Of a stretch of DNA of 64,000 nt, positions 223 to 60,151 are shown piece by piece; position 1 is the first letter of the stretch; each line of letters begins with the position of its first letter. Location: positions 62,001-126,000 of the forward strand of contig BDIU01000139.1 in the NCBI GenBank assembly GCA_002118135.1, given 5' to 3'. The position numbers and the translations under genes were made by a program. Below the pieces are notes generated by a model. The model searched no databases. It worked only from the letters and a program-made list of their open reading frames with translations, and was not told the origin of the DNA. The DNA comes from Trebouxia sp. TZW2008. Taxonomy: Eukaryota > Chlorophyta > Trebouxiophyceae > Trebouxiales > Trebouxiaceae.

Positions 223-3200
223 ATGTCTGCAACTTGTATGCACTCCGCACTGCAGGCAAGACCAGTCAAATGTCAGACTAGCAGACGCAGCGTTGCGCAG
301 CCAACATGCGCGCAAGCGCCCCCACATACTCGGATTGCCGGGAAGCACTTGTTGACAGGTCAGTCACAAAGCCATGCTTCCGACAAGAATAGCGCTAGAA
401 GCATACTGCATGCTGGTTGTATCGTCAAAGCGCATCCACCTGAATGCGCAATGCTGCTGTGGTCGAGCGCAGCATCGTTTGTCGTTGTACGGCTCGGATG
501 CAGGTTTCTGTGTCGACGTTCAGGTGGCCCGCTGAGCAGTCAACAAAATCGCCACTTCCGGTCAAGCAAGTCAACGACAACCAGTGCCGGTCTTGGTGAT
601 CGCTTTCTGAGGGTTGGGAAAGGCTACACCTTTTTCTACGGAGATGCAGCAGGTGACCGAAGATCTTTCTGATCACAGGCTTTGTTGTAATGCAAAAGCG
701 CTACTGTGCATTAAGGCATGCAATCGCTGTCTGAAAGCTTGATTTCTACCACAAATGATGCAGCAGGATTTGGCAATAATTGCAAAAGTCTGCACTGCGT
801 CAGGATCTCAACCTGCCAGGACAATCCACACAGGTCTGCTTATTGCAACATAGTGACTAGGGTCAAAACATGTGTGTGGCAAAGGTTTACTCCGTGCTTG
901 TAGCCAAACAGCTAGAGGATCCAAGAAGAATGCTGGACCAGGCTGTGTCTGAGATGAAGGAGGATCTCATCAAAATGCGTCAGGCCTCTGCCGAAGTCAT
1001 GTCTACACAAAAGATGCTAGAGAGCAAGTACACCCAGGCGCAAGCTTCAGCAGTAAGTTTTTGGTCCTTGTGAAGGGATTGCAGTATCGTTCTGTGCGGC
1101 TGCAGCATTTAGGACAGAACTCAGACAATGACAACGGCAGTTTAGTGTGCAACCCCCATCATGCTCCCTGACATGTCAAGCAGCTGTTGTGTTTGCAGAG
1201 ATGTCAAATGCATGTCATGCAACTGCCAACTTGTATGGCGTACAAGATCAGCAAGGTTGGCACATTGCGTCCTTACTGAAATTTGCAATGCTTGTGCGAC
1301 AGGGCAAGTGTAGGAGCTTGTGCATGGCCAACAATACAGCCCAAGCTCTGGACAAGGGCAAACAACAGCTAGCTGTGGACTCACTTGCTGCATGGTACAA
1401 CAGCTACACACATTTACTTGACTGAGCTGCAGAGTGAGTAACGGCTCTTTGACATTATGCTGTGCAGGATCAATGGTACAGGCGTGCTCAGCTGGCTTTG
1501 GATAAGGGTGAAGAAGAGCTAGCCAGGGACGCTCTAAGGAGGAAGAAGAGCTTCTCTGACACTGCAGCCATGCTGAAGAAGCAGCTGGATCACCACACAA
1601 GAGCGACCAGTCAGCTCACCACCAACATCAGGTGCTGTCATATGCTCCTTGTATTGATAGTGCTGTTGCTGTCTCTGGCATGTCTGAGTTTTCATCTTGC
1701 CTCTGGCACAGCTTGAGCTTCTCCTTGAAAGAATAGTGTGTTGAAAATCTGTCATGCTGATTGCAGCTGTTTTGCTCTCGATATCTTAAACTGGGTTTTG
1801 TACAGCTTGACGTTCAAGACTTGCCTCACTGACTTTGAGTGTGTCAATGAGTCTGCCTGTGATTCTGTCAATGAGTCTGAGTATGTTGCAAAGGATGTTG
1901 GGTTTCAAAGCTGCCTGTCATGCCACTCCCTGACTCAGGCAACTTGATTGAGCCATTGAGTCTGACTCTGCAGAGTAGGTTGATAGAAAGCAATGTTGCT
2001 TATGCAATGAGCAGCGGTTTTTGAAGCTATTTAGCATGCTGCAAAGGCTACAAACTCAGCCAAAAGTGACAGGCTCATCACGACTCAGCAGTCCTTGTCA
2101 GTCAATGAGTGTTATGAGTGAGCTGTGCAGGATGATGGAAGCCAAGGTCGCTGAGGCTATGAGCAAGAAGGAGACTCTGAAGGCGCGAGCTCTGTCAGCT
2201 GAAACCACCAAGCAGCTGAACGAATCTATCACCAGCATGGTGAGCGCTCATTGCATGAAGGCTTCTTTGCATTGCTACGTTACTTTGCAAAGGGCCGACC
2301 CCTTGCAGGTCAATCTTTTGAGGGTTGCTGCTGTGAAAGCAGCACTCCTGGGCTGCCTGTTTAGACAGAGGCTCCCGTTATGACGCCTAATGGCGTAGAC
2401 TTTTCTTTTTTTCTTTTCTTTTTCTACTTTGCTGCCATCTTGCTGCCACACATCACATGAAATGCTGCATCATGGGGGTTCACACTGCATGAAAGCTTGC
2501 TCGTATAGGTGCCTCGTGCTGTGCATTTTAAGCACTGCATGGTGACTTTCACCTTGCGTGATGGGCTTGCTTGCATTGCTAGATTGCCTTGTGGCTGTGC
2601 ATATGCAACGCTGCACATCACCTGGAAGTGGTCACAGCTTGCTTTCGATGCCGTGCTGCTGCGCATGTGAAGCATTGCATTAACACGCCAGTGGACGAAG
2701 TTCAAATCACAGAGCTCAGATGTGTTGTCACTGGGCACTATCTCACTACCTGTCTGTCTTGAGCGATCGTCTGTGCAATGCAACAGCTCATGCTGTGCAA
2801 GCAATGTTTGCAATCTGTTCATCAGACATGCTCCAAATAGTAAATAGTCTGTAATCGGTGTCTACTTGGTCAGTAGACAGGGCCTGCCTGCAATAGACAA
2901 GGTCTGTCAACTTGGCAATGATATTCACTGTGAGCCACAGAGAGAATTTTCCTGCTTAGCAGACAGTGTCATGCTGCAGATGAGCGGGCTGAAGAGCAGC
3001 TTCAGCTGCAGCTGGCTGCCTGTGAGCGCAGGGAGCAGTAGACAATTTTAGCTTGTGTAGTACACGATGAGTACTGTGTATAGCAGACAATGTCTGATGC
3101 TGCAGGTGAGCGGGCTGAAGAGCAGCACCAGCGGCAGCCTAGTCGCCATTGAGTGCATGGAGCAGCTTGTGAAGTACACAATGACTACTGTGTATCAGAC

Positions 3201-4262
3201 ATTATCTAGTTATTTAGCAGACAAAGTTCGATGCTGCAGGTGAGCAGGCTGAAGAGCAGCACCAGTGGCAGTCTGGCGGCCTTTGAGCGCATGAAGCAGT
3301 AGGCAAATTTTGCTTGACTGGTAAATGACGTCTACTGTTTAGCAGACAGTGTCTGATGCTGCAGGTGAGCGGGCTGAAGAGCAGCAGTAGCAGCAGTCTG
3401 GCCGCCATTGAGTGCATTGAGCAGTATACAATTTCTGCTTGTGTAGCATATGATGACTACTGTAGCAAAGGTTCATCAATCGTTTAGCAGACAAAGTTTA
3501 TGCTGCAGGTGAGTGGGCTGAAGAGCAGCACTAGTGGCAGTCTGGCAGCCTTTGAGCGCATGGAACAGAAAGTGGTTGCTATGGAAGCGGAAGCTGATGC
3601 TGTTGCCCAGGTGCGATACCCTGTGTACTAACTTTGCTGCAATTGAGTTCAGCATCCCAGGTGCATGCAGGTTGAGGCTGGTTTTTGGGTAGTGCTCTCT
3701 GCATGTAATTAGGGGTGATTATATGTTGGGCTCTGCATTCAAGCTCTACAAGTGATGTGTCTCTATGTTGCCAGCATATCTTGGTACTGTTGACGTGTTG
3801 CTGATACTGTTACTCAGGTATCAATCCATGTGATTTTTTGTGCATTTGGGCTGGCATGGTGACGCAACATGGTCACATGTCAAGCTGTGAAATGTTTGTT
3901 TGATTGTCATAGCTGGCATAGCGAGTTTCTGTAGAAGATGCTTTCCTTGCACTTCCTGTCCTTATCGACCTGCCGTTTGCTGCAATGCGCTTTGAGCTGC
4001 TATCAGCTATTGTGTTGGTGGGTGCTGAGCTAGCTCTGTGGTGGAACACCAATGCATGAGGAGATGGACTGATTCTGAAAGCATTTGTGTTGTTCTGCAG
4101 CTGGGAAGCAATGACGCCTTGGAAGGCAAGTTTGCTCTTCTAGAAGGTGGTTTCTCAGGCATCGAGGATGATTTTCAGCAAATGAAGAAGAATATGGCAA
4201 GCAGCGGCAGGCTGCCCCAGAAGTCTACAGAGCCGCAGCCAACCACAATTTACTGGTCTTAG
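223..4262 (+). CDS. VIPP1/IM30, chloroplast PspA-family membrane-remodelling protein
   Basis: Model of six exons: 223-652, 904-1052, 1468-1631, 2131-2239, 3509-3610, 4101-4262; 371 aa, all phases compatible. VIPP1 forms ESCRT-III-like rings and supports thylakoid biogenesis and membrane protection. The first ~125 residues are basic, Ser/Thr-rich and look like a chloroplast transit peptide, followed by the amphipathic segment GDRFLRVGKGY. Diagnostic PspA/IM30 motifs follow: QLEDPRRMLDQAVSEM (exon 2), QWYRRAQLALDKGEEELAR (exon 3), MEAKVAEAMSKKETLKARA (exon 4), AAFERMEQKVVAMEAEAD (exon 5) and DALEGKFALLEGG (exon 6). The protein ends soon after the core and no long Vipp1 tail was seen. The exon 1 donor (652/653) and the start ATG are the least certain points. 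Exons 3 and 5 have decayed copies in the preceding introns. Confidence 0.9.
1319..1385 (+). repeat. Decayed copy of VIPP1 exon 3 head in intron 2
   Basis: The stretch reading AATACAGCCCAAGCTCTGG and ending at GCTAGCTGTGGACTCACT aligns with exon 3 from about 1476 (ATGGTACAGGCGTGCTCAG onward, through GAGCTAGCCAGGGACGCT). It lies upstream of the working exon. Identity is moderate and the copy seems old, so chance similarity is not fully excluded. Confidence 0.5.
2971..3432 (+). repeat. Four tandem pseudo-copies of VIPP1 exon 5 with acceptor sites
   Basis: Units begin at ATGCTGCAG at 2971, 3097, 3231 and 3356; the working exon follows with the same motif at 3500. Periods are 126, 134, 125 and 144 bp. 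Each copy holds the intron 3' end, the acceptor CAG, and the exon head GTGAGCGGGCTGAAGAGCAGC up to about GAGCAG, then diverges. The exon's second half (KVVAMEAEAD...) exists only in the last, working copy. Stop codons such as TAG right after the copied head of units 1 and 3 show that these are not ordinary alternative exons. Confidence 0.88.
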
Positions 4263-5789: not shown

Positions 5790-8700
5790 ATGAAGGTAAT
5801 CGCGGTGCTATTGGCCCTGTTGGTCAGCTCGCAATGCGCAGCGGGTGCTTACACCGGCTTCATCCGCACCAGCGGCGAGCACTTCGTTGACGACAACTGC
5901 CAGGAGTTTATTCCTACCGGCATGAACACGTACGTTCCTACTTGAACGGTTACCCAGCCATGTGCAGCTCGCGTGTTAAGCGTTATGCGGGTTTTGCTGT
6001 TTTTGCTTGACCGCCCACTTCTTCAAAGTCACTGCACTCGACTGCAGCCATACAAGATGTTGCATCTCGATGTTGGACAGACAGTGTGGCTTTGGCGGCC
6101 CAGACACGCTGGTTTTGTGTTGACCGCTGGCCACTGTCGGGCTTGGCCACCTTTGGCTAAGCAGTTGTCGTCCAGCTTGCTAACATCAGTGGTCTACTGC
6201 TGTAGATGGCTGTTGCTGGAGTCAGTGGTCGGATCATTGGTAGACCCTCCTACCAACCCATTTGGTCTGAGCCCTGTTGACTTCACTTTTGAGGTCGCAG
6301 CCAACAACAGCCAGACCACAGCACGTGTCTTTGCACACGGCATCAATTCCACTGTGGCTCTTCAGCCTCAGCAGGGTGAGCCAGCTGTCTTTGAGCTGCT
6401 ATTCATTGCTTGCTCTCAATGCATACAATCTAAAGCTTGATGACATTTGCAGCTGCGGAGGTGATGTGCTTTGCCAGCTTTGTATGCGTACATCAACTTC
6501 CTGACACAGTGTCATTGTAGCCCTGCTGAGCACCACTTTTTCATAGATTCCTCTATGGTCGTGCACATGCTCATTTTGATACGCCTTGCGTAGGTGTGTA
6601 CAATGAGACAGTGTTCAAGGCACTGGACTACATCATTGCCAGAGCCAGCCACTACGGCATCAGGTTGATCTTGACATTCGGCAACGAGTGGGACTCAGCT
6701 GATTCCAAGATCAACTATCTGGAGTGGGGCAATGCCACCGACAACACCAACGAGTTTTTCACCTCCACTGCCATCCAAAATTACTACATGGACCACATCA
6801 CCACCATGGTCAACCGTAACGTGAGTCATGCCCTGACCCCTAGTCATGTCTGACCAACTATGCATCTCTTGTACTGCATCCAGAGTTTCTACATTGACCA
6901 CATCACCACCATGGTCAAGCAAATGTGAGTCATGCCCTGACCCCTGGTCATGTCTGACCAGGTATGCATCTCTTTTAATGCAGTATAGTGGGATGTCGTG
7001 GACCACATGACCACCATGTTCAGCGCAACCTGGGTCATGCTTCAGTGCTTATGCACAGCTTCACAATTTAGGCTTCAATGCTGGGTAGTAAGCTTGTCTA
7101 GCAGTCTGCATTGCTTGAGTGGTATTTTGCAGCTGTATACTTTGTAGCCGTATGCCAGTGTACAGAGCAAAGCAAGTCAATAGCATCAGTACTGTCAGCC
7201 CACTTTCTTCAAAGCCTTCTTGTGGTTCCGTACCCCCTCGCAGTCACTTCAATTCTGGAGCTTCACTGCAGTCCTTCTGACAGTTTGTTCCTTTTGCTGC
7301 AGAACACATACACTGGTGTTCAGTACAAGAATGACCCCACCATCTTTGCCTGGAACTTGATGAATGAGGTCAGGTGTGAGTGTTTCCCAGTCACTCTGTA
7401 CCCAGCCTACCCAACCAATGCAGAGTGCCTGCCATCTTGCGCAGATGCTCTTGACGTAAGTTCTAGGCCTTGCATTTAACCTGGATATTGTTCCTGCTGC
7501 TGTCTGCTGCTTTCAGCTGCTTATGTGTTGGCTTTGTTGCTGGCTGTCTTGTCAACTTGTCAAGCTTGCTGACTGCTGTAACTTGATGTCTCGAGCTATC
7601 ATGTTCAGCAGTTGCGGCAGCATACATGTAGTTGTGCTGTGTTGCATGCAGCTCACTGCAACAGCTGCTGCCTGCATTGTGGGACCCATCAGTCTGATCC
7701 TTTGTATGACTTGCATTCTGACTTTGCAGGCCTGGGTGCAAATGATGGCCAACCACACTCACAGCATTGACACCAACCACTTGGTCACCATTGGTTACGA
7801 GGGTTTCTGGGGCGAGTACGACGCAGATGTGCAGTACAACCCCGGTAACGGATGGGCAGGCATCACCGGCCAAAACTTCAGCCAGAACGTCGCTCACGAC
7901 GAGATAGACTTTGCCGAGATCCACTTCTGGCCCGACCTGTGGTTTGCTGACCAGCAGAACATCAACACCGACGTCACCACCTTCCTGACCAACTGGTTCA
8001 ATCAGCATGCTGCTGTCGCCCACTCCCTGAACAAGCCCCTGCTGCTTGAGGAGTTTGGCAAGGCTGTCAACGTGAGTAATGCCTTTGCCACATATCATTG
8101 CGTCCACAAAGTGACTTCATTGTGCTTGAACTGCTTGCAGTCTGACCGTGCAGCTTGCATGCAGCAGCTGTTGCACTATTGTTTTAGTTTTGTGTGTGCT
8201 GTTGATTACAACGCTACATATTTACTCTGATTGGTCAGCAGTAGCAGCAAGCCCTGCATTGCAATGTTGTATGGATGTTGCATGCAAGCTGCGCAATAGA
8301 TCCCTATTCACTCCAACTTGTCATTAATTTTGACTAGTAGTTGATGCTGACTTGTCTGCTGTGCTACAGAACACTGCCACTGGCAACGGTGTCCAGGCCA
8401 ACCCTAAGCCCGGTGACATCAGCTACATCCGTGACCGTTACTTTGAGACTGTGTACCAGATGGTCAACAGCTCTCTCACCGCCAACTCTGCCCCAGCCAG
8501 CACCCTGCGTGGTAAGGCTCTGCTCTTGTTGCCTTTCAGCTTTGCTCTTGTTGCATTGATCTGGTGCTAATTTCTTGCTGCCTTTCAGCTCTGCTGTTGT
8601 CGCATTGATGTGACTGGCAAGTTCTTGCTGCCTCGCAGTTCTGCTGTTGCAATGCAATTGTCAAGTCTTGTCGGCATGTTATTTCGTACATCCTGCTAGC

Positions 8701-10277: not shown

Positions 10278-13200
10278 TCAGAGTTGCTGAACAGCAGCCA
10301 GATAAGTGTCTGGCAGATGATCAACAAGGATCTCTGGCAACAGCAACAACCGCGAAAAACACTCCTTCTGTACATCCAACAAAATCGGCTGCTTCTGCCA
10401 GAGCTTCTGCACCTCTTCTTCAGGACTCACTGCTGAGGTGTCAGCTTCAGACACAGCAGCTGCCGACGATGACAGATCAGCTGCTGAGGAAGATGAAGGG
10501 TTCTGCTCCTGACCATCTATTGAAAACGAAGCAGCAGCTGCTGATGAAGAGGAAGGGTCATCTTCAGGATGCATAGCCTGCTCAGGATCTGCGACTGGTA
10601 TGTGTGCATCTTCAGAGCTTGGCTGATCAGGTGAAGGAAGCATCCAGATGATCCTGCCTGCAACAAGCTTAATCTCTCACCAACCAATCCCACTATGCAC
10701 ACAGTGATGCAGTTGCATTGCATGCTTCTGTGTACATGCCAAACATGTGCTTGGCCTGATCAAGATCCGCAATTGGTATATGTGCATCATCAGAGCTGGG
10801 TTGATCAGGTGAAGGGAGCATCCAAATGGTCCTGCCTGCAACCAGCTCAAGCTGTCTGCAAATTCTCATATGTTTCATTTGTAGTCCACGCATTTGCATG
10901 CTTTCCAGGATTGCAGGGGTGAGAGGTGAAAGCAACTACATCAAGTGCCTGGTGTCTGCAAGGGGGTCTTGCATATGCATTTAGTCGACGGCAATGACAT
11001 CAGAGTCAGGTTTGAGGGTGGACGGGTCGGTTTGGGGTGACTTAGAGTTAGGGGGCTTGCCTGGTGGGTAGAGGGGGGTAGGCGGCCCATCAGGTTCCAG
11101 CCTGGTCACCCCTAGCATGTCTGCCACACCCTCTTGCATCCTGTGTGAATCATACACATTGTCAAACATACAGCACGCACACCATACAGGATGTAAACCA
11201 TATAAAGTGTGACCCATGCAGGATTTGAAACATACAGGATGCGAACCTTACACGAAGCCAAGTGCATGCAGACGTTGCAGTTAGAGACAAGGCAGTATGG
11301 GGCAGCTTGGTAGAAAGAATGCATCAATCAGCAATAGCTGATCTCTGACGACTGTCAGCATTGAGCCTGACAATGAGCAACTGTGCACCTGAGATGCGAT
11401 CAGAGTCTGTCAAAACTGAGTGTGCTGATGAGCAGCAATGCAACTTCTGTGCAATAAGATGCCGGCAGCATGCAAAGGCACCAACAAATGACAACATGTG
11501 ATAAGACTTCTGCTGATTGCAGCATTCCAACAGATAGCATGTAGATATGATGACATGAGATTTTGCCAGATTGGCAGTACACACAAGCTGAGCAGATGCC
11601 ACTCACCGCTGTTCTGTTTGGCTGCCTTCAGCATTCCCTTGAACACATTGCGACCTGGCAGCTGCTTGAGAACCTGGATTGCCAGCATGCTCAGGGCCCT
11701 CAGCTGAATCTGCCCTGCCCTGTGCGAGGGGCTGCGCTACGCTGCCCTGCCCTGCATCAAGGCCTTGCTGCTGGATCTGCCCCAGAAGCTGCCCTGCTGC
11801 CTGTGCTATGCTGCTGTGCTCGTTACCTGAAGAATGAGGCTGGGTGGAGTCAGGGCCAGCGGTTTGGCGTGGGAGGGATGTAGCATGGCTGCCTGTAAGT
11901 CTGCTGTTGTGCTGCGGGCTCCTGAGCACCTTGACGGCCTTTCCATTGGCAGCTTTTCTTGGACTGGCCAAAGGCGCTTTGCTACTTATAGACTGCCTGA
12001 ACACTCTATCGCTCGTGCTGTTAGATGTGGGTTGAAGCGCTGGAGTTGGCTCAAAGTCATGCTGGTGGTTTGAGAGAGGGCGCATAGCGTGCAAAGCATG
12101 CGCAGCATTTGAAGGTGATGATGACATGGCTTGCTGCGCTGCTGAGATTCTGTCCATGGCTGCATCAGCCAGATGAGCTGCCTGATCTGATGGATCATCT
12201 GGATGATCCAGTGAGGTCATGATTGCATCATCATCCTTATTGCATGCCGCAGCTGCTTGATCAGCTGAGCCAAGATCATCTGGCAGATCCTGAGGATGTG
12301 ACTGATTCCCAGAAGCTGACTGATCAGGTTCCTTTTGCTGATCCCTGCTTTTGCCCTTGCTCCAAAAAGGAATGCTTGGCCAGAAGAAAGAACTCCCGCC
12401 TGCCTTTCGCTTTTGAGCTTGACCACTGGGGCCCTCAGCTACTGATAAGTCACCTTCACTTGAACTAGTTGAGACGGCTTCATCACTAGTACCATGCATG
12501 TCTTGGCTGGAGGTTGCGCCATGGCTTCTGCCAGTGGCGGGTTTGTCTGCATACCCAGGCAACTTTGTGCCATCAGTGTTTCTGCCAGATGCCTGTTCTG
12601 GGAGGAGGACGTTGGTCAGAGGGCGAGGGGACAGAGCAACTGGGTGCAGCCCCACCTCCCGGGCACCTCCTACAGCTGCCCCCGCCAGGGATGTCTGTGA
12701 AGGATTTTTGGGCAGGGCAGTTGGGTGCAGCCCTGCCTCCAGGACACCTCCTGGGGCTGCTCCTGACAGGGATGTTTGGGAAGGGTTGCGGGGCAGGGCA
12801 GGCCCCAACAAGCCCTCAGGTACCATACTCTCAGCAAACTGGGCAGCATCAACTACGCCCTGATTACTCTCCATTGATCTGCTCCTTTGCTGAGGTGAGT
12901 CTGCCTGCATGAGGAGATTGAGCTGAGCCATATACATTTGCGGATACAATGTTCTGCATCTGGTGCTATGACTTGATGCTGATTTGAAGCATGCTAGGGC
13001 TTTTGAGTCTTGCTGGCATGAATATACTTCTTGTAGCAGGGCAGGTTGAGTAGGCGTGGGTTGTGCTGTATGATGGACCTATGAATTTGGCCTACCACAG
13101 CATGACAGCATCAGCAGCTGACATGCTGCAAGCATCAGAAGTCAAACATCAACAGCAGCAGCAGCAGCAGCAGCAGCAGACACATTATAGTGAGTTCAAT

Positions 13201-25760: not shown

Positions 25761-26127
25761 GAACAGCAATGAATGCCTGCCCCTGCCTCTATTCACCGAA
25801 AGGGCTATGTCTCAGGGCCGTACTTCAACTCGTTGATCCGCTGACTGTCAGCCCCTGACAGAGGGCAGACAAGCAAGTTTTTCGACGCAAACAGGCTCCA
25901 GGTCTACTCACAATGCAAAAATTGCAGACAACAAGCAGAGGCTGCGGACACCGTCTGCGTTCAGAGCTTCAAGCGCAAGAGGCAAGGTTGCAGCTGCAGG
26001 CCTGGGCAAGTTAGTAATTGCACCGTGACTAAACAAGTTCTCTTCAGCAAGGTTGACCAGGATGACGCCAATCCGACGTTGATAGCGGAGAACGTAATCA
26101 GCAGCTTGGTGTGCGGCTGCTGTGGCG
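25761..26127. promoter_or_regulatory. Divergent spacer, uL18 and SET gene
   Basis: A 367-bp gap between divergent start codons. It probably contains a shared or back-to-back promoter. No specific motif was identified. Confidence 0.4.
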
Positions 26128-45802: not shown

Positions 45803-46451
45803 TGCAGGGCACATCGACATCAATCAGCATGCATATGGTTGGAATCTACAAGTTGTATGCTGCCAGCCAAGCTGTAGCCTTGAGCAAGCCCTGCTTTGCT
45901 TGCAATCAGCTGAGCTCACCAGAAGCTAGCTTGACCTCATAAACATTCTCCAGCACAGCTTGCACAGCCTCTATGTTATACGACAGTATACCCAGTAGTC
46001 CAGTAGTTTTGAACTTTGTTGTGCAGTCAGCGCTACCATATACGCTACCTGGCCATGGAGAAATTGCTTGGTCTCTTTCAGGATATGTCTGCAGTTGGAG
46101 CTCACTGCAGTAAATGCTTGAAGTGCAAGCGCCAATCATCGCTTCACAACGTTCATAAGACCATATCTTGGGTCCTGGCGTCATTGGCTTTGTCTTGTCT
46201 GAATGTGCACGTCACTTTTGACACAGACGAATTTGACTTGGGACAGACCATCATATTCGCCATTTGCCGCGACGTGCGTCTAAGCACGCACACAACTGTT
46301 GCCTAGAGCGTCATTTGCATGCTGTACAAAGTCTGCAAGTTTAGTAGTAGTAGTACCAGTACGTTCTGACGCAAGTCTCACACGTGCGAGCGATCCCACA
46401 CAAGCTCTGAAGATCACATACGCTTCTTGACGCCGCCTTGGGCGCGCTGCG
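45803..46451. other. Spacer between SAICAR synthase and the unrecognised gene
   Basis: 649 bp. Open frames on the - strand at 45906-46184 and 46280-46552 show no family signature. Probably the 3' UTR of one gene and the promoter of the next. Confidence 0.4.
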
Positions 46452-48365: not shown

Positions 48366-51300
48366 ATGCCGGCGCTAGCAGTAGCGGGGGTACGATGGCA
48401 TATTTCCAGCGACGATGTGCCGTTATTTGCCACATTCGGGGGCGCCTTCCACGCAGTTTGGACTGTGGTGATCCTGCTGACATCCCAAAGCATCCTGCAT
48501 ATGCCCCACCAATGTCACCACGAAGGTCGACAGTACATTGCCACCGTGACTGGTTTGTTGTTTTGTTTCACGCTCGGTTTCGTGGTCGAGGTGTTGCTAG
48601 TGTGGGAAGGTTGCAAAGGTAACTGTGCCACAACCCTGATGCATGCATGCAAAAACAGGGTTCATTACAACATGCAACACGTGTGTACATGATACTGGTT
48701 TGCATAGTCTACCAGGCTGCACAGACCATCATATTGATGAGCTTTTGACATTGCCGCCAAATCTTGCAGGCGCACCGTTTGAATTGTCCAAGCGCAGAAA
48801 CATGAGCCTTTTTGTATTTTGCCGGCTTGCCAACCTCATCATGGAGACAGTGATCACAGGTAAATCCCAGACATGTCATTCAAAATGTCAAATATGATGC
48901 AGCTTGAGCCCCAATTTAGCAATTCTTCTTGTTTCAGTCGGTACATGACCTTGATGGCATTGCTGTTGCAGCCTATGGCACATATGTTGTGTTTGGCACA
49001 CATGTGCGGTGCAAGGAGGATGAGGAAATCATCTGGGACCCCAAAAACGAGGTCAAAGTGCTGGTCTGCTTGACCTGGGGATTTCAGCTGGTCCTCTTGT
49101 AAGTCTTCAAGCTCCTTGCTAACTTTGCTATTCAGTATGACGACAGAGATTTGCTGCATACGATGTCCAACCTTTGGCTACATCCGACAGAACTAGACGG
49201 GACCATGATACAGAGAAGCCTGTTTCTTGCATGCAAACGCCATGCATACAACAAAAATTGGCAAAAGATCCAATACAGGGGACCTGCAATGCAGCTGAAT
49301 TGGATGCTGATATGCAGAGTCAACTCACTGCTGTGGTACAATGCATGGCCTGAGCAGCATACTACTCTTGTATGGGAGAAGCGTTTCCAGTGGATTGGGA
49401 AATGGCTCCTGTGCATACGGCAGTCTGACACACCAGAAATGAGGTCAGGCAAATTCTTCAGTCCCTGCCACTCCATGTCTGTTGCTTTCCCTTTGTGTTA
49501 GCACCAGTGCTTGTGCAGCACTGGCCTCTGTTCAAGGGCATCTGTTTGAAGCGCAAAATGCTTTGTCTCATGCATCAGCATTCTTTTGCATGGGCCATGC
49601 TGCATGCCTGTCACAATTTCCTTTGCTGCAGACAGACATCCCTGAGGCGCATTGCACGCTGGGTCACGCAGCTAGTGGGCCATGTGGATCTGACTCCTTC
49701 TGACATAGTGCTGGCGCTCATTCTCACTGCTTCATTGCAGCGCAAACGGCGCAGGTGATAACTTACCCTACATGTGACTTCGCTGTGACATTGACATTAC
49801 TCTAGTGCGTCACACTGCTACACGCATTCCATTGTGAGTACCGCTGTGTTCAGGTAGCGTGCAATGCTGCATACATATACTTCTGCTGATTGAAGCCTGA
49901 CACAATCCGACTGCTGGGTTGCTACAGCTGTTGTTGAAGGGTCTTCCGCCTTGGAAGCTCCTTTGACTAGGCCTAGGCACCTTGTGCCATGCAAGGTGTG
50001 CACTGCAATGTTCAGCTGCGGTTGTCACTTGCATACGCAATGCATATATGCTTGTCATATGCATTGCGTATGCAAGTGACAACCGCAGATGCTCATTACA
50101 GAGCACACATGCTTGGTACCGAGTGCATTAGCAAGCTGCTGCTGCCATACACCATTGCTGCATCCTGACTTTACTTTGATGCCGAGCACTTGAAGGCCAA
50201 GCCATTTGAGGTCAAGCACTTGAGGCCAAGCATGTCGGGGCCAAACATGAGATATTGTTTGCCATGCGCTGGTTGAGCGTCAGCAGTTGCTTTGAAATAT
50301 GCCAGCATGTCTTGGTGAATGGTACTGTTGTCTACAAATGTTGGCCTGGCGCACAGGGAGCACATCATCAGCAGCTGCAGGCAAAGTGACACGGCCATTA
50401 AGCAGGCAACAGCCCCACCACGGCAGGCTGAAGCCCTGTCCAATGCTGACAATACATCACTGAACAGATAGCGAGGCGCTTGTTTGTGTGAGTTGCAGAT
50501 GAGGCGTTTTCGTGTGAATATCACTGTTGTCAACAGATGTTGGCCTTGTGCACAGGGAGCACATCATCAGCAGCTTCAGACAAAGTGATAACGCCATTGA
50601 CCAGGTGACAGCCCCTCCCAGGCAGGCTATAGCCTGGCCAACGTCGACAGCACACCACTGAACAGAGGGTGCTAAACCTGTTTGCATGACTTGCAAAGGA
50701 GACCTTGTGTTGGGGATCTTGATGCATGTTGGCCTTGTGCATAGGGAGCACATTATCAGCAGCTGCAGGCAGAGTGACAAGGCCATTGAGCAGGCGATAG
50801 CCCCTCCCAGGCAGGCCATAGCCCTGTTTGCCGTTGACAACACAGCACTGAACAGAGTGTGCTGAACCTGTGTGCGTGACTTGCAAAGGAGACCTTGTGT
50901 TGGGGATCTTGACGCATGTTGGCCTTGTGCATAGGGAGCACATTATCAGCAGCTGCAGGCAGAGTGACACAGCCATTGAGCAGGCAATAGCCCCTTCACA
51001 ACAGGCCATAGACCTGTCAAACATTGACAACACACCCCTGAGCAGAGGGTGCTAAACCTGTTTGCGTTACTTGCAAAGGGGACGTGTGTTGGGGATCTTG
51101 ATGCATGTTGATCCTGTGTACAGGGAGCATATCATCAGCAGCTTCAGGCAGAGTGACAAGGCCATTGAGCAGGCAACAGCCCCTCCTCGCCAGGCCATAG
51201 CCCTGTCCAATGCTGACAGTGCCCCACTGCCTGTGGGCTATCAGTTCAGCAGCAGCTCTACAACCAGTGCTATGTATGCTGGGCCTCCGCAAGAACTGTT

Positions 51301-54300
51301 GGAAAGAGAGCTCAGCGACACTCAGGTCAGACCTCATTCTTTCAACAACTACAGCAACAAACTCATGACTGCGCTGCGCTGCCTGCGGGCTACCATTTTA
51401 GCAGCAGCTCTACGCTCAGTGCTATGTATGCTGGGCCCAGCAAGAGCTGCTTAAAAGAAAGCTCAGCGACACTCACGTCAGACATGATGGATCACAATGA
51501 GTGCTGCAGATCATCATCTGTAATGCAAAGCATAGGTCCACAGTCTTCTTTCAATGTCCTGGCTGCAATGAGCGTCAGCAAGCGCCTTGGGCCTGCTTGA
51601 TAGCCTGTGCTTCAAATGAGCTAATGGTCGCAAGGCATGCTGCATTGAGCAGTCATCAAGCCATGTTTGACATCAGGGTTCAACAGTTGTTCACTGCACA
51701 CTGCTAAATCAATCAACGCTACGCTGTCAGCAGTGCTGTGGCATGGTTGTGCAGGAGGTGGTGCTGGACATTGCACCTCAGGAATACTTGCTACGCACAG
51801 TTGTGACTATCATCCCCGTGTCACAGCTTCCCAAGCACAGGCAACCCAAGCCTGAAAAGCAGCAGCAGCAGCAGCACAGTCACCAGCATCAGCACCAGCA
51901 GCAGCAGCCGCAACAAACGGCACAGCAGGTTTCTGCTTTTGCCTCACCATTTGAACAGCAGTCCCAGAGACCAGCAGGTGCCTCACAGCTGCCAGGGCAG
52001 GGCTCCTTGGAGCAGCCCCTGTTAGGGCAGGGCTCTTTGGAGCAGCCCTTGCTAGGGCAGGGCTCACTGGAACAGCCCCTGCTCAGAAGCCCCTGGCAAA
52101 TGCCTGCAACTGCTCCCAGCACTTCTGATGTCCATCTAAATGTTATTCCTGAAGACGCTGAGGCTCAGGACGGTGCAGATACAGGACCTTCGCAGGACGA
52201 GCTTGAAGCTCAGCAGGTGAAATGTGCTGTACATTCTCATGCTGATGTAGGCCTTGCCATGCTTTTGGTTGTATCTGCAAATGCTGGGTATTATTAGTGA
52301 CCTGCACAAGGTGCCTGCCTGTGGAATCACATGACAACTTGCAGTTCTGCACCAGAGTGAGAAGCACAGTCATGGCCTGACATGTCCCTATTTGGTCTGC
52401 CCTTCAATGCAATCCCAAATTCTCTGGCTCCTGGTAGTCTTTTGACTTCCTCCAGCCGTAGCAAGACCTTAGTAGGAGCTCAGCATGCAAAGCACAATGA
52501 CACCTTGGCTCTTCTGCTATCAAGGCAAAGGTGTTTGAACTGCTTGCTAAATGGTGTGCAGGAAAGTAAACAATCTGTGGGTGCTGATGTTGGTTTGGCC
52601 CTTGTCTTATCAGAACTTACATTGCCATGTGCTTGCTTGCTGTCGTGCAGGAGAGCGGGCACTCTCTGGGTCCCGGTGATCCCTTGACCAAGTTCAAGCG
52701 GCAGATGGGCCTGACGACTCAAGGCTGCATTACCCCATCTGGCATGGAGGAGAGGCTCAGGTAAGCAATTCTACCTGACACCTGTTTGTAGATTTTCGAA
52801 TGCCACAGACCCTGCAGGCACTTGAACAACAAGTGTGTGATGGGCAGTCGTGCTGTGTCATAAGCTGTGCATGGTCTTTACCGTCATTGGCGGTGGGCTA
52901 TTAATGCATGTATTCAAGGTCTATTTGCAACCCAGGCAAGCAGTGCAAAGACACACAGGGCAGTAATGCTGTGTTAGTTTTTCATTTGATGTTGCCTCAC
53001 GGCCTTTCTGCTTCCCATCCCTTGCCCCCGCCTTTGTCCCTGTCCAAGTGCTGCCTGACACCTAAGCAAGCAGTCCAGAGACATACAGGGCAGCATAGCG
53101 GGTGCCATGCACTGTGCCCAGTCGCCCCGCCCCTCCTTACACCCCCCTCTCCTGCTCCTCGCTCCTTGCTCCCCCCCTCCCCCCCCCTGTCACCCCCGCT
53201 CCGCCATGTGGCATATTTTGCCAATGTTGCAATCTTTCCTGAAGGGGCCACCTGACACCTGAGCAAGCGGTGCAGGATAGCACTGGCAAGTGCCAGTCAG
53301 TTTGCTGAGTCAGATGTCACACTCTCCTGAGTTTGCCATAGCAGTGTATGGGCTGGAGCCTCACAGTCACAAGGAGACAGTGGTGCGCTGTCTTCTGCAG
53401 GGGCCACTTGACACCAGAGCAAGCGGTGCAAAGATATACAGGACAGCACTGGCGGGTGCCAGCCAGTCTGCTGAGTCAGATGTCACACTTTGCCAAGTTT
53501 GCCATAGCAGTGTACGGGCTGGAGCCTCACAGCCACAAGGAGAGTCGTTTCACCAACACCCTGGTGGCTTGGCTGCGCAGAAGCAAGGAAAGGGTCAAGC
53601 GCAGAAACTCCCGCAAGTGAGAATCCCAGACAATCTTGATGTGTGGGAAGTATTACTTGCCTTGTGAACTTAAGGATGGAAAATGAAAGATTTGCAAAAC
53701 CTTGCCCCCAAAAATCCAAATGCATTGCAGATCCAGGAAACATCAAAACTTGCGTGCTGAGATGTCTGAAGAAGAATGGCTTGATACACCACGCACTGCA
53801 AGATTCACATTGCACTGCACCTGCAATGCTGCAAGCCAATCTGGCATTCCTTATTCCACTTGACTCTGGCCCTGACTCTTCTGCTTCTGTGCCTGCCCCT
53901 GCACTGGCTGATATGAGAGATGTCAGCATTGCCAAATGTACAGTATTACATTCAAAACTCCAGCACAGTTGCTGAATGGGCAGGCCAAACGCCCTGTGTA
54001 ATCTGTTGCTCGCCTGGAGAGCTTCACAAGGGGAGCAGTCAAAGTACAAAGCCATTCTTGTCCCCCTGCTTGGGTGGTTCTGTCTGCAGTGATTTTCGTG
54101 AGGCTGCTATCCTTGCCTCATATGCCCTGTGCAACCCTTACTTGCCTGCAGGGCTTCACAAGGGAACCTATATGAGCAGTTGAACTATGAAGCCATCAAA
54201 GAGCAAGCAGGCATGGATGACAGTCAGCTGGTGTATGTCAGCTTCTCCAATCAAGCCCTGGCACATTTGCCATATATGGTTGCGCTTGATGAAACTAGCA

Positions 54301-57300
54301 GGTCAGCCTTGCGCTGTGACTTATCTGCCATCATGCACGGCTGTGCTTGATGAAAGCAGCCGGTCAGTATTGTGTTGTGGTCTGTCTGCTATCATCAAGC
54401 ATGCTGTCAGCTTGACTCAAGGCTTTGTTTGCAACCAAGCTTTGGCGCACCTGCCATACATAGTTGCCCTTGATGAAACTAGCAGGTCAGCCTTATGCTT
54501 GCTATCATCAGCTTCAAGTCTGCCTGGTCCTCAAAACATGTGTCATAGTCAAGGCTCATAGCCTTGACGCAATCACAGTAGCCTATGAATTTGATTGCCT
54601 CTTGATGACACTTGAGGTATGCTGCATGCTGTTATGTTGTGTTTCAATGACTTTACTGTATGGTTGACATAGCCTGACATCATCAACGTAGACCTCAATG
54701 AAGGCAGGAGGTCGACCTTGTGTCGTAGCTTCTTTGACAGCACGAGCATCAGCGTCCTCTATACGTCATGTTGAACAAATCATCAAGGCCTTGATGCAGG
54801 CACACGTATGTCAGGATCATGATGCATCTTGATGTTTGTAATAGATGTTGACAACATGGATTCATGGTATGCGCTTGAGCCATATTGACCATGGCTGGTT
54901 GTGCAGGCCTGTTGTGGTGGCTGTGGTAGGCACAGCAGCCTTGGAGGATGTCATTGCAGACAGGCGGTTGCCACAAGTCCTGCCGTCAAATCCACTTTGG
55001 AGGCCCTGTCAGGAAGCCCCATCTCGTTTACTCCAAGCAACTGACTGTTATGAATCTGCTGCAGGTCTGTTGTGGTCTGGCTGTAGAGGCACAGCAACAA
55101 TGGAGGACGTGCTCAGACCCCATGCGATAGCCAGCGCCATCCTGCCTGACACAAGTAGTGCAAGGCATGACACATGACATTGAAAAGCACCGGCCTGTTG
55201 TATAGGTCTGTCGTGGTGGCTGTGAGAGGGACGGCGACAATGGAGGACGTGATCACAGACAGTGTGGCAGCTCCAGACCTGCTGGACCGCTCTGAATGGC
55301 TGCCGACTGCATTCAAACAGCAGCAGGCCCAAACAGGTGATGCCACTAAGCTAGTCCTAAGCTGCTTTTAGTCACAGAGACCTCTGCCAAAACAATTCAC
55401 AGCGCAGACTTGCATTTCCATGTCATGCTGCTGAGCTCAGTCAGCCAGCTCCGCTGTCATCACTTGTATTCAGCCTCTTTGCAGCTGCTTGTGTGTTTTG
55501 ACATACATATGCACAAAATCAGTCAGATGCGCGCATACAGGCACCGATGTCTGCTGAATGGCTGCTGGGCGCCTTCAAACAGCAGCATGCCATCAAGCTC
55601 AGCCCGTCAGTATCTTCCCAAATCCAGTGTATTTGGCTTTGCAGGTGAGAGGATGTATGCTCATGGTGGCATTGTGGCGGCGGCTGCATCTATCTTGCAA
55701 GACATGGACCAGCACAACCTGCTGCAGCGCTTGCTTGAGGAGTATGACCCCTATGACCAGCAGCACCTACAGCCACACAACAGGTTTGACTGACCCTTAG
55801 TGCCAGACCTTTCTTGCAAGCCTGGAAAACAAGCCTGTCGACTTGGTTGTGAGCCCTGTGATCTAGCCTGAGGCACAGACAGTGCAGCGCTTGCTGTAGG
55901 AGTATGATCCCTATGACCAGCAGCAGCTGCAGCCACAAAACAGGTTTGACTTCAATCAATCAATCAATCAATTTTACTGTCCTTGGGACCCAACAGGGGG
56001 GTCAACAGACAATATCAACAATGAATCAATGCAAATCATACCTAAACTAAAATAAGCATGCAATAAATTGTCTCGGCGTTCGTCAACAGAGCACCTGGAT
56101 AGCTAGGGACATGAAGGAGAGGTGCTAGTGCTGCGACGCCACACACACACTACTACACCTCTATTGTCTTTGATGTTCTCAACAAAGCATCGAGAAGTGC
56201 CAGGAATATAATGAAGGAAGATGCTAGTGCTGTGACATCACTACCACCTTAAACCTAGGTATGAAAAGCTGTGTTCTTACTTGCATGCTCTCCTGTTTGC
56301 CCAGATATCGTAGTGCCCATGTGCATTTGTACAGCAAGTCTGGTGGAATACGACCCCTATGACCAGCAGCAGCTGCAGCCACACAAACATATTTGACTTG
56401 CATGCTCTCCTTTTTGCTTCAGATGTCGTGATTTCCATGTGCTGTACAGCAAGTCGGATGGCGGAGTATGTCCTTTGACCAGCAGCAGCTGCATCCACAC
56501 AACAGGTTTGACTTGCATGCTCTCATTTATGCTTCAGATGTTGTAATTTTCATGTGCTTCTGTATAGCAAGTCTGGTAATTATGACCCCTATGACCAGCA
56601 GCAGCTACAGTCACACAACAGATTTGACTTGCATGCTCTACTTTTGGCTTCATATGTTGTAATTTTCATGTGCTTCTGCATAGCAAGTCTGATGGTGGAG
56701 CATAATTCCTATGACCAGCAGCAGCTGCAGCCACACAACAAGTCTGGCATGCATGGCAGTCACTGTTGGTTTGATGCGTGATCTCTGTAAATGGCAATCT
56801 TGCTTGTGATTGTAGAGTTGCAGCTGCATCAGAGGAACTTTAATTTTCTCTGGAGACCTCCTGGAAAAGCTATTGCTTGCACAGCATTACTCTGTATGCT
56901 GCATTGTTTTGTGCACATAGCACACAAAGCACATACTAACACGTAGCACAAAGTCCAGCTTGCTGCTCAACCTGTGTTGCATATGTGCACTGTGTAAGAC
57001 TTGAACTGACGGGCGTCATCGAAGCATTGTAAGGCCTTGCTGTGTTGCTTTGCTCAGCTTGCAAGCGATGCTTAGCATGTTCAAGGGGCGCATTCACTTA
57101 GCCCAATCAGGAATGGCAGCTTTGCACTTCTTGCAAAGCACAGATGATGACAAGCAAGCTGCTGGGCATGACAGTCTCTCTAGACTGTACCTCATAAAGC
57201 TGCGTCTGTTTTCCTGCAGGGATCAAGTCGAGGAAGAGGAGAACCAACCAAGCTGGGACCACAGCATAGACTATCGCAGCTGGAACTTGGTCATCACAGG

Positions 57301-60151
57301 TGACCTCAAGCTCCTCCTGACTCACTTAAGCTGACAACTTTACATTATCTCCGGCAGAACCATAATGGTCTGGCAAGTTCATTTCAACAATCAACGTATG
57401 CTTTGCATAAGGCTCAGCATTGACCTACGCACCTTGCACTACCACTTCTGTACAGACAGCTCCTGATATCTGTCACTCAGAGCACGGCCTAGGAACAGGG
57501 GTGGTTGCTCTCATAAAAGTTTGCTGGAAGATTCTGTCCCCCTCTGCCAAGTGCTGAACATCCTGTTCCTGTAAGCCATGAATGAGCATGTTGCAGTGGC
57601 AGCCTTGTGTGCAATTTTCATGGACTTTGCTGCAGGGCACAGCCTAGGGGCTGGGTGGCTGCTCTGATAATCTTCTGCTGCAAGATTGTCTCCCCTCTGT
57701 CAACTGCTAGACCTCCTGCTCCCATAAGCCATGAATGTGCATGTTGCAATAACAGCCTTACATGAAAGATCCATGGGATTTGCTGCAGGTCACAGCCCAG
57801 GGGCTGCGGTGGCTGCTCTGATAATCATTTGCCAAAAGATTGCTTCTCCTGCCAAGTGCTGAACATCCTGTTCCTGTAAGCCATGATGCGCATGTTGCAG
57901 TAGCGGCCTTGTGTGACAAATCCATGGACTTTGCTGCACGCCACCGCCTAGGGCCAAGCATGGCTGCTTGAATGACCCTTTGCCTGAAAGACCGCTTTGC
58001 ATCTGCCAAATGCTGGGAATCCTGTCCCATCTTGAACTATCAACTTGCAGCTTGCAAGAGCAGTCCTATACACAAAGGGGCAGCAGCCCTCAACAGACGG
58101 ACTGTGGCCTTTGATGCAGGTCATAGTCTAGGAGCAGGAGTAGCTGCTTTGATGACCCTTCGCCTGAAAGATCGTTTCTGCTCTGCCAAGTGCTGGGCTT
58201 TCTGCCCGCCTGGGGGCCTGATGAGCGCCAACCTCAGCCATGCTGCTCAAGGCTTTGTGAACTGCGTGGTGGTGGGAAAGGACATCGTTCCTAGGTTGTC
58301 TGTGGTCAACATTGGCCGCCTTATAGACGGACTGGTGAGCTGAGTGTAACCGCAACATCAAAGTGTGTAAGGTACCACAACATGTGCGCATTCACACTAG
58401 TTGTGACATACTCAGATGCATCATGCACATGTCATAGGTGCTCTTGGTACATGAGCATGCTTCGTCGAAACATGAATCAGAGAGAACACATGATCAAGCG
58501 CATCTTCTTTTTACTTCACTTCTTCTTGAACTGAGCGACTTGAGTCTTACTATGTAGGTTACAGGACTAGCAATGTGCAAGCACAACAAGAATGACATGT
58601 TTTTGCGCAAAATGTCCACGTACTGGCGACATGATCGGGCAGATCAGCTGTTCTATGACTATACAGACATCCCCTTGGAAGCTCGTGAGGTAACTTTGGT
58701 CACGTAAAACGCTTCTCACAGGTGCCACATGTATACCAGTAGCGCTTGCACTCTGACAGGCAAATAAGAGCGAACTGATGTAAGCCCTGCAAGCAATTAT
58801 GATGCACACAGCAAGCTTGTCATATGTCTTTGGTTGCATTGTTGGTGACAGTTTGCGTTGCCATAACCTCATGCTTTCGCTCAGGGACTCACGCAGCTTC
58901 ATTGTATGCATCTTAAATCCTTCTACCTGTTGATTGCACTGTAGCGCTGAAGCCTGTGTTTCCCCCCGCAAGTCACCCAAAGATTTTTGCACAGGCATGT
59001 TGTCGCCCATGAGTCACCCATGCTCACCTATGCTTCACCCATGTAGTGCCTCAAATTGTGGCTGACAACTCGTATGACCCAAACCATCAACTTGAATCAT
59101 ACATGCATACATTCATGTGTCCAGTCGATGCAAGATATTATGAGGATAGTATTGCAGGTCTTGGAGCAGTACAATCAGGGCATTGAGGCGCGCAACCGCA
59201 TGCTAGAGCTCATCCTTCCAGGCAAAGTTGTGTTCCTCCGGCCTCGCAAGGTACAAAACATCAAGGCCATAGATCATGTATCATTGCACGTGAGACAAGC
59301 TAGTGGTGTATATCAATAACACCTTCAAAAGTCTAGCTTGAAGTTGCTTCTGGTGACTGCTGACTGAGTGCAAGATGTCAAAAACCTTCTCATTCACTGC
59401 ACAATCCTGATACAATGTGTTCAATAACTTACTTGGTCTCTTGTGTGACAAACATTCATCACGCTGACATTGGTGACCCATGTCTACTTTGTAACAGGAT
59501 TGCATAGCAAATGCAGGTGACTAGATTCTGATGATGCTGACTAGATGATGATGCTGTTGCTGCAGACAAACAACCTGCGAACATCGTGGGATGCTGTCTG
59601 GATGGCGCCAGAGGAGATTGCCAAGGAAGGCATCATGATCTCCCCCCATCTGCTGGATGATCACTACACTGTCACTCTGGAGGTAAGTTATCGCTGCCTG
59701 CTCATGCCATGTCTGCTTGCACATGTCACGCATGTGTGCGCATGACATCCATGCTCACATGTGAGTATTGTGCGCTTCAGATTGTTCTCTCATCGTGAAG
59801 AAAAAGAAACTTTTGACTTTTTAACAAGGCATATTGCATGTGCTACTCAATGCCAGTGACTACATGTCCATGGAAAAAGGCAAATCTGTGATACAGGTTT
59901 CTATCAATGTCCTGAGCACCACTGCTGATGCACTACCTGCTTGTTTGGGTAATGCTGCGCATGTATGCAAGCCATTTTGGAGAGCCTCACGCTTCTTTGC
60001 ATGCATGTGATCTGAGTGACTGGTGCAGGCCGCTCTGAGAGCTGCTCAGTATCATGGTGGACCTTTTGATGAGAATCATGCGGCATACTTCCCTCCAGAA
60101 CCTGCCAGCTTCTCCACTGATGCTACTTCTCCCTTTCAGTCAGTATTGTAG
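48366..60151 (+). CDS. sn-1 diacylglycerol lipase, animal-like DAGL with 4 TM helices
   Basis: Eighteen exons: 48366-48618, 48770-48859, 48972-49098, 49147-49443, 49632-49754, 51124-51325, 51755-52216, 52651-52760, 53401-53616, 54152-54301, 55206-55336, 55645-55783, 57220-57299, 58120-58334, 58558-58689, 59158-59250, 59566-59682, 60029-60151; 1019 aa. The N-terminus (WHISSDDVPLFATFGGAF) and following hydrophobic segments match the four-helix region of DAGL alpha/beta. Then come VDLTPSDIVLALILTA, a Gln/His-rich insert with three GQGSLEQPLL repeats (exon 7), AIAVYGLEPHSH, SVVVAVRGTATMEDVITD, nucleophile Ser796 in GHSLGAG, Asp848 in VGKDIVPRLS, PGKVVFL, and His973 in ISPHLLDDHYT. It should release 2-acylglycerol and a fatty acid from diacylglycerol at a membrane. 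Six exons have tandem pseudo-copies in flanking introns. AATAAA occurs about 210 bp after the stop. Confidence 0.9.
50016..50088. repeat. Perfect 32-bp inverted repeat with 9-nt loop
   Basis: The arm 50016-50047 (CTGCGGTTGTCACTTGCATA...) is the exact reverse complement of 50057-50088. The loop is ATGCTTGTC. The palindrome lies in intron 5 of the DAGL gene, about 270 bp before the first unit of the exon 6 copy array. It could extrude as a cruciform in DNA or fold as a strong hairpin in the transcript. Confidence 0.97.
50357..51120 (+). repeat. Four tandem pseudo-copies of DAGL exon 6 head (~189 bp period)
   Basis: Exon-like starts at 50357, 50556, 50745 and 50935 precede the working exon at 51124; spacings are 199, 189, 190 and 189 bp. 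Each copy begins GGAGCACAT and reads REHIISS(C/F)RQSD, then an in-frame stop falls after about 40 codons. The first two copies keep a CAG acceptor; the third and fourth have CATAG. The intron part (TTGCAAAGGAGACCTTGTG) is in the unit too. Confidence 0.95.
51376..51476 (+). repeat. Copy of DAGL exon 6 tail, downstream
   Basis: The exon 6 end (GCTATGTATGCTGGGCC to GCTCAGCGACACTCAG and donor GTCAGA) is repeated at 51376-51476 with GTCAGA kept after CACTCAC. The frame is broken by TAA. Exon 6 therefore has head copies upstream and a tail copy downstream. Confidence 0.93.
52926..53380 (+). repeat. Three pseudo-copies of DAGL exon 9 head
   Basis: Exon 9 begins at 53401 with GGGCCACTTGACACCAGAGC. 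Diverged copies lie upstream at 52929-52972 (short), 53052-53106 and 53243-53380. The last extends through GTATGGGCTGGAGCCTCACA and is nearly as long as the first two thirds of the exon, but has lost the reading frame and its acceptor AG. Confidence 0.88.
53120..53206. repeat. C-rich pyrimidine tract
   Basis: About 85 bp of almost pure C/T (runs of seven to ten C) lie between two exon 9 copies in DAGL intron 8. The opposite strand is G-rich and could form G-quadruplexes or triplex DNA. Confidence 0.85.
54012..54510 (+). repeat. Head and tail copies around DAGL exon 10
   Basis: Exon 10 (54152-54301) has an upstream head remnant at 54012-54050 (GAGCTTCACAAGGGGAGC against GGGCTTCACAAGGGAACC). 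Downstream it has tail copies at 54343-54375 and 54440-54510; the second carries CTTGATGAAACTAGCAGGTC with the donor unchanged. Confidence 0.82.
54907..55122 (+). repeat. Two pseudo-copies of DAGL exon 11 head
   Basis: Exon 11 (55206) encodes SVVVAVRGTATMEDVITD. Copies after good CAG acceptors begin at 54907 (PVVVAVVGTAALEDVIAD in one frame) and 55065 (frame broken by one missing base after GTGGT). Both then diverge. The first remains open and splice-competent at its acceptor. Confidence 0.9.
55892..56745 (+). repeat. Five copies of DAGL exon 12 tail
   Basis: The exon 12 end (GACCCCTATGACCAGCAGC to CACACAACAG, donor GTTTGA) recurs at about 55892-55952, 56335-56400, 56463-56520, 56577-56630 and 56694-56745. 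All are downstream of the working exon (to 55783). From the second copy on, the unit is about 115-125 bp and includes the shared intron text TTGACTTGCATGCTCTC. Copies 1 and 2 are separated by an inserted element. Confidence 0.95.
55953..56278 (-). mobile_element. Nested insertion, likely non-LTR retroelement 3' fragment
   Basis: About 326 bp begin with (AATC)n then ATTTTACTGTCCTTGGGAC. Read on the reverse strand it ends CAAGGACAGTAAAATTGATTG repeats, the usual look of a LINE-type 3' tail. The neighbouring array units give the empty site GGTTTGACTTGCATGCTC; here that text is split as GACTT / ...TTACTTGCATGCTC, leaving a 4-bp ACTT duplication. No reverse transcriptase is present, so it is a short 5'-truncated copy or a SINE. 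The family is not identified. Confidence 0.62.
57475..58020 (+). repeat. Four pseudo-copies of the DAGL catalytic-serine exon head
   Basis: Exon 14 starts at 58120 with the GHSLGAG coding segment. Diverged copies start at about 57475, 57637, 57788 and 57937, with about 150-160 bp period. The second reads GHSLGAG then a stop; the third reads GHSPGAAVAALII after an intact TGCAG/GTCACAG junction and stays open for about 24 codons; the fourth has lost its acceptor (TGCACG). Intron text such as CCTGTAAGCCATGA is part of the unit. Confidence 0.93.

Follow-up and report, generated by a model that had tools for sequence, protein, structure and literature searches.

Tandem duplication is an established source of introns (Hellsten 2011; PMC3443670), and duplication of exon edges is a known kind of event. 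In the potato RdRp gene (Ma et al. 2016, PMC4974935), a single tandem duplication covered the 3' side of an intron and, with it, the 5' part of the exon that follows. Short proximal duplications have been described in vertebrates, with a median length of 147 bp, and the accessible text lists 4 of 824 human donors as partial exon/intron, with an exon example in the opposite orientation (Pace et al. 2009, PMC2671141). Tandem and mutually exclusive exons, as described in the available text of PMC9013439, likewise place exon sequence a second time in a neighbouring intron. In the literature searched, mostly without subscription papers, we found no description of the density, the polarity, the intron growth by silent half-exons or the lack of whole-exon copies reported here.

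The window, a 64 kb stretch of the Trebouxia sp. TZW2008 genome (C135:62001-126000; whole genome 68.5 Mb in 527 contigs), resembles each of these systems in part. As in the tandem intron-gain model, to judge from the accessible part of that source, the duplications are short, lie within the gene and take their splice signals from the duplicated stretch, but in that model an exonic AGGT segment is duplicated to yield a new intron, whereas here existing introns grow (PMC3443670). Unlike in the AGGT model, the two genes here for which spliced records exist have gained no new intron or exon. The potato unit is the same as that of the head copies described below, yet the text available describes just one instance, with splicing of both copies and the gain of an intron, whereas here there are many copies, apparently silent (PMC4974935). 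The vertebrate duplications are also short, close by and inclusive of splice sites, but the accessible text gives no polarity rule for them, whereas the copies here are polar (PMC2671141). Mutually exclusive exons are whole and used alternatively, whereas the copies here are half-exons with one splice site (PMC9013439); an exception is the block C185 2685-3784, with its repeated coding exons. Nor do the copies resemble introner elements, which are similar introns dispersed through a genome, as far as the sample goes: within its blocks, 236 kb in all, a single direct repeat had its units separated by more than 4 kb, and matches to other genes numbered 2 for 278 exons.

The explanation we favor, at a probability of about 0.68, is repeated short-range direct duplication at exon-intron junctions that leaves silent, decaying half-exons in introns. 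A short stretch straddling the junction would be duplicated beside itself, over and over, such that the spare copy comes to lie upstream if the unit joins an intron end to an exon head, and downstream if it joins an exon tail to an intron start. Such a half-exon has one splice signal and would probably go unrecognised as an exon; if invisible to exon definition, it could persist and decay while the original remains the working exon. Duplications inside an exon would survive mainly when the frame is kept. Introns would grow through the accumulated half-exons, and if intron flanks turn over fast, it would mostly be the constrained exon part and the splice signal that stay alignable.

Copies were sought in 256.4 kb, comprising the window, 10 kb of flank on each side and 172.4 kb from ten other contigs, one of which contributed just 1.2 kb. 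Exon models are our own predictions, with VIPP1 and mannanase read by hand. The two-strand gene finder was trained on the sample itself and combined an order-3 periodic Markov model with splice-site matrices. Its first version was dropped because it fused nearly everything into single genes, and the second because too many exons were called; the stricter successor built from the second was used. It reproduced the hand-made exons except at gene ends, and its faults include fusing VIPP1 and mannanase in one chain and adding the VIPP1 copy at 3106-3168 as an exon. From 333 predicted exons, the 278 with a coding score of at least 5 were kept, and each was searched with 150 nt on either side against the surrounding 3 kb; a match had to include 15 nt of exon or more. 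Genes of the window have Pfam matches to PspA/IM30, Lipase_3 (two genes), ING, YccV-like and WD40, and the mannanase chain has no Pfam-A match at E 1e-5, while its homologues carry PF26410. The nearest named proteins are those of Trebouxia C0005, C0006 and C0010 for VIPP1 (83-86% identity) and of T. lynnae for mannanase (77%). Stray DNA of an algal relative was also sought in prokaryotic genome contigs, and none was found there.

The clearest cases are two plus-strand genes with spliced records. The working VIPP1 exon (3509-3610) is in one frame with its neighbours and is preceded by four head copies (2956-3463), each with the acceptor and the first 60 nt in units of ~125 nt. The exon is present in the spliced protein P0001 (219 aa), which is 100% identical to this genome's VIPP1 with the copies skipped. 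In mannanase, the working exon (6594-6820) is followed at 6873-7040 by two tail copies consisting of exon tail, donor and intron (79% over 170 nt and 84% over 43 nt). The spliced protein P0121 (466 aa, 100% identical) contains the exon and reads straight over the mannanase junctions without the copies. Source contigs are at most 1,433 bases for P0001 and 2,163 bases for P0121, shorter than the genomic spans of ~3.3 kb, so these sources must be spliced sequence. Judging by the 100% identity of the protein records, they appear to come from this strain or one very close to it. For both genes, the working exons in series give exactly the spliced protein, and neither an intron nor an exon has been added. 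Two of the VIPP1 head copies are also matched by VIPP1 proteins. A second PspA/IM30 paralogue lies at C39:415062-415864 (53-58% to VIPP1). In the left flank, at about -9144 to -293 in window coordinates, VIPP1 and mannanase have as neighbour another gene of glycosyl hydrolase family 5 (Pfam Cellulase), whose exons also have head and tail copies.

Lipase_3 exons on the minus strand, known from gene models, show the same arrangement. Exon 13690-13805 has three head copies at 13868-14295, one of which overlaps 13876-13944, called an exon by the gene finder; exon 15378-15482 has a tail copy at 15237-15290 (76% over 55 nt), exon 16718-16843 a tail copy at 16400-16474 (80% over 75 nt) and exon 18688-18858 a head copy at 18907-19086 (87% over 180 nt). 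The last predicted exon, 10278-10657, has a head copy at 10748-10856 (83% over 109 nt) that went uncounted, as a weak predicted exon overlaps it. Also on the minus strand, the receiver-SPA (WD40) exon 37946-38167 has a head copy at 38226-38298 (85% over 73 nt); the shorter exon given here is our own reading, the gene finder having fused exon and copy. Local inverted repeats at 16185-16224, 18101-18260 and 49996-50108 were seen as well, and these are much rarer than direct repeats. The remaining minus-strand gene to mention encodes a YccV-like (hemimethylated-DNA-binding) protein at 30814-32192.

On the plus strand, the predicted exon 51124-51325 has a head-copy array upstream (50338-51048, two units of which were called exons) and a tail copy downstream (51366-51483). 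Five exons of the DAGL-like gene, all on this strand, carry copies. Exon 53401-53616 (matched by protein P0244) has head copies at 53239-53377 and 53056-53123; exon 54152-54301 (P0241-P0244, from other genera) has tail copies at 54339-54395 and 54432-54494; exon 55206-55336 (P0241-P0244) has head copies at 54898-54963, called an exon, and 55063-55115; exon 55645-55783 (P0241-P0243) has tail copies at 55883-55951 plus four in an array at 56279-56746; and exon 58120-58334 (P0241-P0244) has head copies at 57489-57556, 57779-57861 and 57925-58017. A full record of the DAGL-like protein from this strain did not turn up, but the last four of these exons are matched by Botryococcus and Coccomyxa proteins, one of which, P0242, also has a weak match to a tail copy, at 54427-54486. 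Upstream, a SAICAR synthetase gene fragment (Pfam; 44361-47364, +) is merged with the DAGL-like gene in the model. Within an intron, the stretch at 55950-56240 contains an AATC simple repeat and, after it, sequence that by eye resembles a piece of a mobile element. Farther upstream, the chain at 22158-30262 (+) joins ING N-terminal and Rubisco LSMT substrate-binding domains and most likely represents two genes merged by the gene finder.

Across the 256 kb sample, the 278 exons gave 254 matches, and the 143 in which the copy lay outside every predicted exon were counted. Such copies occur within 3 kb of 73 of the 278 exons and in the adjacent intron of 64, mostly of one exon end and mostly decayed. 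Copies with the acceptor and exon head lay upstream in all 52 cases, and copies with the exon tail and donor lay downstream in all 36, so polarity was kept in 88/88 counted matches that cross one boundary. Another 52 counted matches cross no boundary by at least 6 nt; 29 lie upstream, 27 of them from the head half of the exon, and 23 lie downstream, 22 of them from the tail half. The remaining 3 are whole-exon matches. These matches are not independent events: head copies upstream belong to 31 exons and tail copies downstream to 24. By the gene models, 119 of the 143 lie in the intron next to the exon, namely 42 head, 36 tail, 39 uncrossed and 2 whole-exon matches. A further 18 lie in some other intron, and 6 in no predicted intron. 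The window alone contributed 32 (9 head upstream, 11 tail downstream, 6 + 3 uncrossed, 3 whole).

An earlier note on this DNA, made from the sequence alone, had reported at least 30 exon pieces in six genes, with heads always upstream and tails always downstream. The 32 counted matches of the window come close to that number and copies were found in VIPP1, mannanase, Lipase_3 (its 'DysF lipase'), receiver-SPA and DAGL, but ING has no copy even at E 0.05 in the 5 predicted exons checked. The rule of sides is without exception among the counted matches that cross one boundary. It is broken by 13 of the 111 uncounted matches, whose copies overlap a predicted exon, either a different one (47) or the searched exon itself (64); of these 13, 9 are heads downstream and 4 are tails upstream. 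By inspection, most of the 13 involve copies called exons (3106-3168, 50769-50825, 50959-51048, 54907-54966 and C45 9576-9667) or repeated coding exons (C185). A duplicated stretch that crosses a splice junction forces heads upstream and tails downstream by its geometry, so this 'strict rule' is not an independent clue. The note had said that confinement to this window would count against its claim, and the pattern is not so confined: polarity is the same on nine of the ten further contigs, and the tenth, the 1.2 kb piece, is without copies. Two further claims hold up. The copies have many ages, with local pair identity ranging from 68 to 100% (median 80%; nine in ten pairs differ by 9-29%), and the introns that contain them (91 of 308) are longer, with a median of 535 nt vs 390 nt.

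Gao and Lynch reportedly found in 2009 that internal gene duplication is frequent in eukaryotes, and the copies here are internal in that sense, being direct and within the same gene. Same-sense matches numbered 143 vs 6 antisense, and when each of the 278 exons was compared with the surroundings of one randomly chosen other gene, 2 matches were found. The VIPP1 array, the sole array searched genome-wide, matched its own locus alone among the scored candidates.

Local direct duplication at exon-intron boundaries, with the working copy kept, is the part of the note's model of repeated local tandem duplication that is supported; its strictly tandem form is weakened, since 56 of 211 local pairs are adjacent or overlapping, most having a spacer (median gap about 85 nt), and the intron flanks of copy and parent are less alike than neutral tandem duplication should leave them. 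The repeat unit was also said always to span the junction and to include intron sequence. Of the 143 counted matches, 119 come within 6 nt of the splice site, but the reach into the intron is mostly short: among the 81 of 93 distinct copies that come as near, it is at most 29 nt in 59, 30-100 nt in 5 and more than 100 nt in 17. Direct-repeat arrays occur in VIPP1, DAGL and elsewhere. Exon boundaries are crossed by 95 of the 211 local pairs, compared to 69.4 +- 8.8 under rotation (1/500 as high); the copy is inside an exon in 49 (32 +- 7), a whole exon is merely spanned in 0 (7 +- 3) and no exon is touched in 67 (103 +- 11). Of 95 local arrays, 78 touch exons, compared to 49.6 +- 4.4 under rotation (0/1000 as high). 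This exon excess is partly expected, as a conserved parent keeps its copies detectable. AGGT intron gain was sought among the exon-overlapping matches, and the case inspected, C165 1835-1975, reads more like a head copy miscalled as an exon.

Most copies are decayed. After dropping overlapping alignments, whole-exon matches and exon parts below 30 nt, 93 distinct copies remained, of which 64 are broken (53 with a frameshifting gap, 22 with an in-frame stop) and 29 are open in frame. In the roughly ten exons with at least 3 copies, changes private to a copy fall evenly over codon positions 1/2/3 (73/56/62), changes private to the parent fall mostly at position 3 (2/3/15) and sites of mixed pattern number 19/11/47. 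The private changes are mainly the signature of a constrained parent with dead copies. Differences by codon position are 0.132/0.096/0.251 between copy and parent over all copies and 0.160/0.139/0.202 between copies with alike flanks. Given the position-3 excess between copies, the overall skew is, by our own reckoning, roughly as expected from dead copies and a constrained parent. The skew is strongest in the least diverged class, at a ratio of 3.28, which is more than dead copies and a constrained parent give; the sites of mixed pattern are skewed as well, again beyond what entirely dead copies would leave.

The intron flanks are the least expected feature. Their likeness exceeds the null 99th percentile in 22 of 112 copy-parent comparisons, whereas simulated head units, duplicated in tandem under neutrality and put through the same search, gave 45-98% depending on exon identity; at an identity of 0.84-0.90, flanks are alike in 7 of 43 cases vs 89% in the simulation. 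Flank loss as mere neutral divergence failed this test. The rarity of alike flanks points either to fast intron turnover, beyond the point changes of the copies, or to halves derived from diverged haplotypes. P0250, a predicted protein from another contig, matches exon ends here at 30/30 and 43/45 residues, while the 543 nt between those ends and the 904-nt intron here give no match better than E 0.2. This sequence comparison appears compatible with fast intron turnover as well as with diverged haplotypes.

Unequal exchange between diverged haplotypes would join one strain's exon edge to another's intron and exon, so that copy and exon are unlike from birth and their introns were never alike. 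It would account for homology that ends shortly beyond the splice signal, also where a copy has diverged little, for the position-3 skew even in broken copies, for the exon involvement of 78 of the 95 arrays and for the near-identical exon ends of P0250 around an unlike, shorter stretch; moreover, evidence for recombination in a Trebouxia population is cited in the accessible text of a paper on Asterochloris (PMC6652019). Against it, the one exon tested (342 nt, mannanase) has no second copy in the assembly, and the codon-position skew does not clearly depend on whether the flanks are homologous (ratio 1.88 where they are, 2.25 where they are not). The arrays with homologous flanks look like single-haplotype events, and a great many exchanges would be required. 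We consider such exchange unlikely. The wider picture that would go with it, of introns as graveyards of half-exons from inter-strain unequal exchange that keep the coding pieces of other haplotypes, with exon definition as the gate to intron growth, is equally unlikely.

The aligned lengths of ~100 nt, the spacers and the closeness of the copies also resemble the vertebrate pattern (PMC2671141), which raises the prospect that broken introns were patched with a short nearby copy by synthesis-dependent strand annealing rather than by tandem duplication. Free patches would need neither a splice junction nor a polarity, and the exon example in the available text of that study, the one case from which we take free orientation to be expected, is inverted, whereas antisense matches here are 6 vs 143 and 119 of 143 matches reach the junction within 6 nt. 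A unit that crosses the junction requires such reach, and a free exon fragment would not. Repair-mediated capture therefore seems a doubtful source of these copies, and junction-crossing direct duplication, which we infer to be the usual cause of individual copies, fits their ends better.

Splice sites bear on a third explanation, that selection maintains the copies as alternative exons or as regulators of splicing. With duplicates and first or last exons dropped, AG is kept in 36 of 44 head copies (29.2 expected) and GT in 28 of 36 tail copies (26.0 expected), slightly above expectation, and in addition 29 of the 93 copies are open in frame and a few, such as the tail copy of C165 exon 3806-4011 (1/0/7 changes at the three codon positions), differ from the parent almost only at position 3. 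Opposed to this, no second splice site rises above background: a donor-like site (score of at least 4) stands at the other end of 2 of 51 head copies (random intron, 0.10) and an acceptor-like site at that of 5 of 29 tail copies (random, 0.14). The copies are also absent from spliced VIPP1 and mannanase, 64 of 93 are broken and copy-private changes are flat over codon positions. For the bulk of the copies, selection as coding exons was rejected, and a role for them in alternative splicing is very improbable. The exon side of tail copies tends to start near acceptor-like sites of the parent (0.31 vs 0.09 for random exon positions; n=29, several from one exon), which counts against the favored reading.

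Random placement predicts 0.17-0.45 whole-exon copies per one-boundary copy, or about 15-40; the 3 counted all have parents that resemble copies themselves, and none has a sound parent. The one clear near-whole-exon case is the C185 block (2685-3784), where three predicted coding exons look like tandem exon duplicates. Within exons, the period is a multiple of 3 in 7 of 9 pairs, while pairs elsewhere show no preference (remainders 0/1/2 of 49/39/47 and 22/20/25). The scarcity of whole-exon copies, together with frame-keeping within exons, suggests that the silent half-exons are probably the duplications that pass selection. The pattern fits selection that removes anything splicing could see as an extra exon, and exon definition may be the reason for that selection.

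An assembly or gene-finder artefact might be suspected because the gene finder learned from the very sequence that it annotated, called some copies exons and merged neighbouring genes. Such an artefact is highly improbable, as divergence of 9-29% in nine of ten local pairs makes a collapsed or doubled assembly unlikely, outside proteins match working exons of VIPP1, mannanase and DAGL, and the other-gene control gave its 2 matches for 278 exons.

These findings carry a warning for annotation, as gene predictors will call half-exon copies as exons, as happened here. They also make a claim about splicing, namely that it should pass over half-exons that have a good acceptor but lack a donor, or vice versa. 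The copies bear on the open question of how introns grow, and exon-edge duplication leaves a readable record of its side, unit and age. If decayed edge copies accompany about one exon in four, intron length in this lineage may partly reflect exon-edge duplication.
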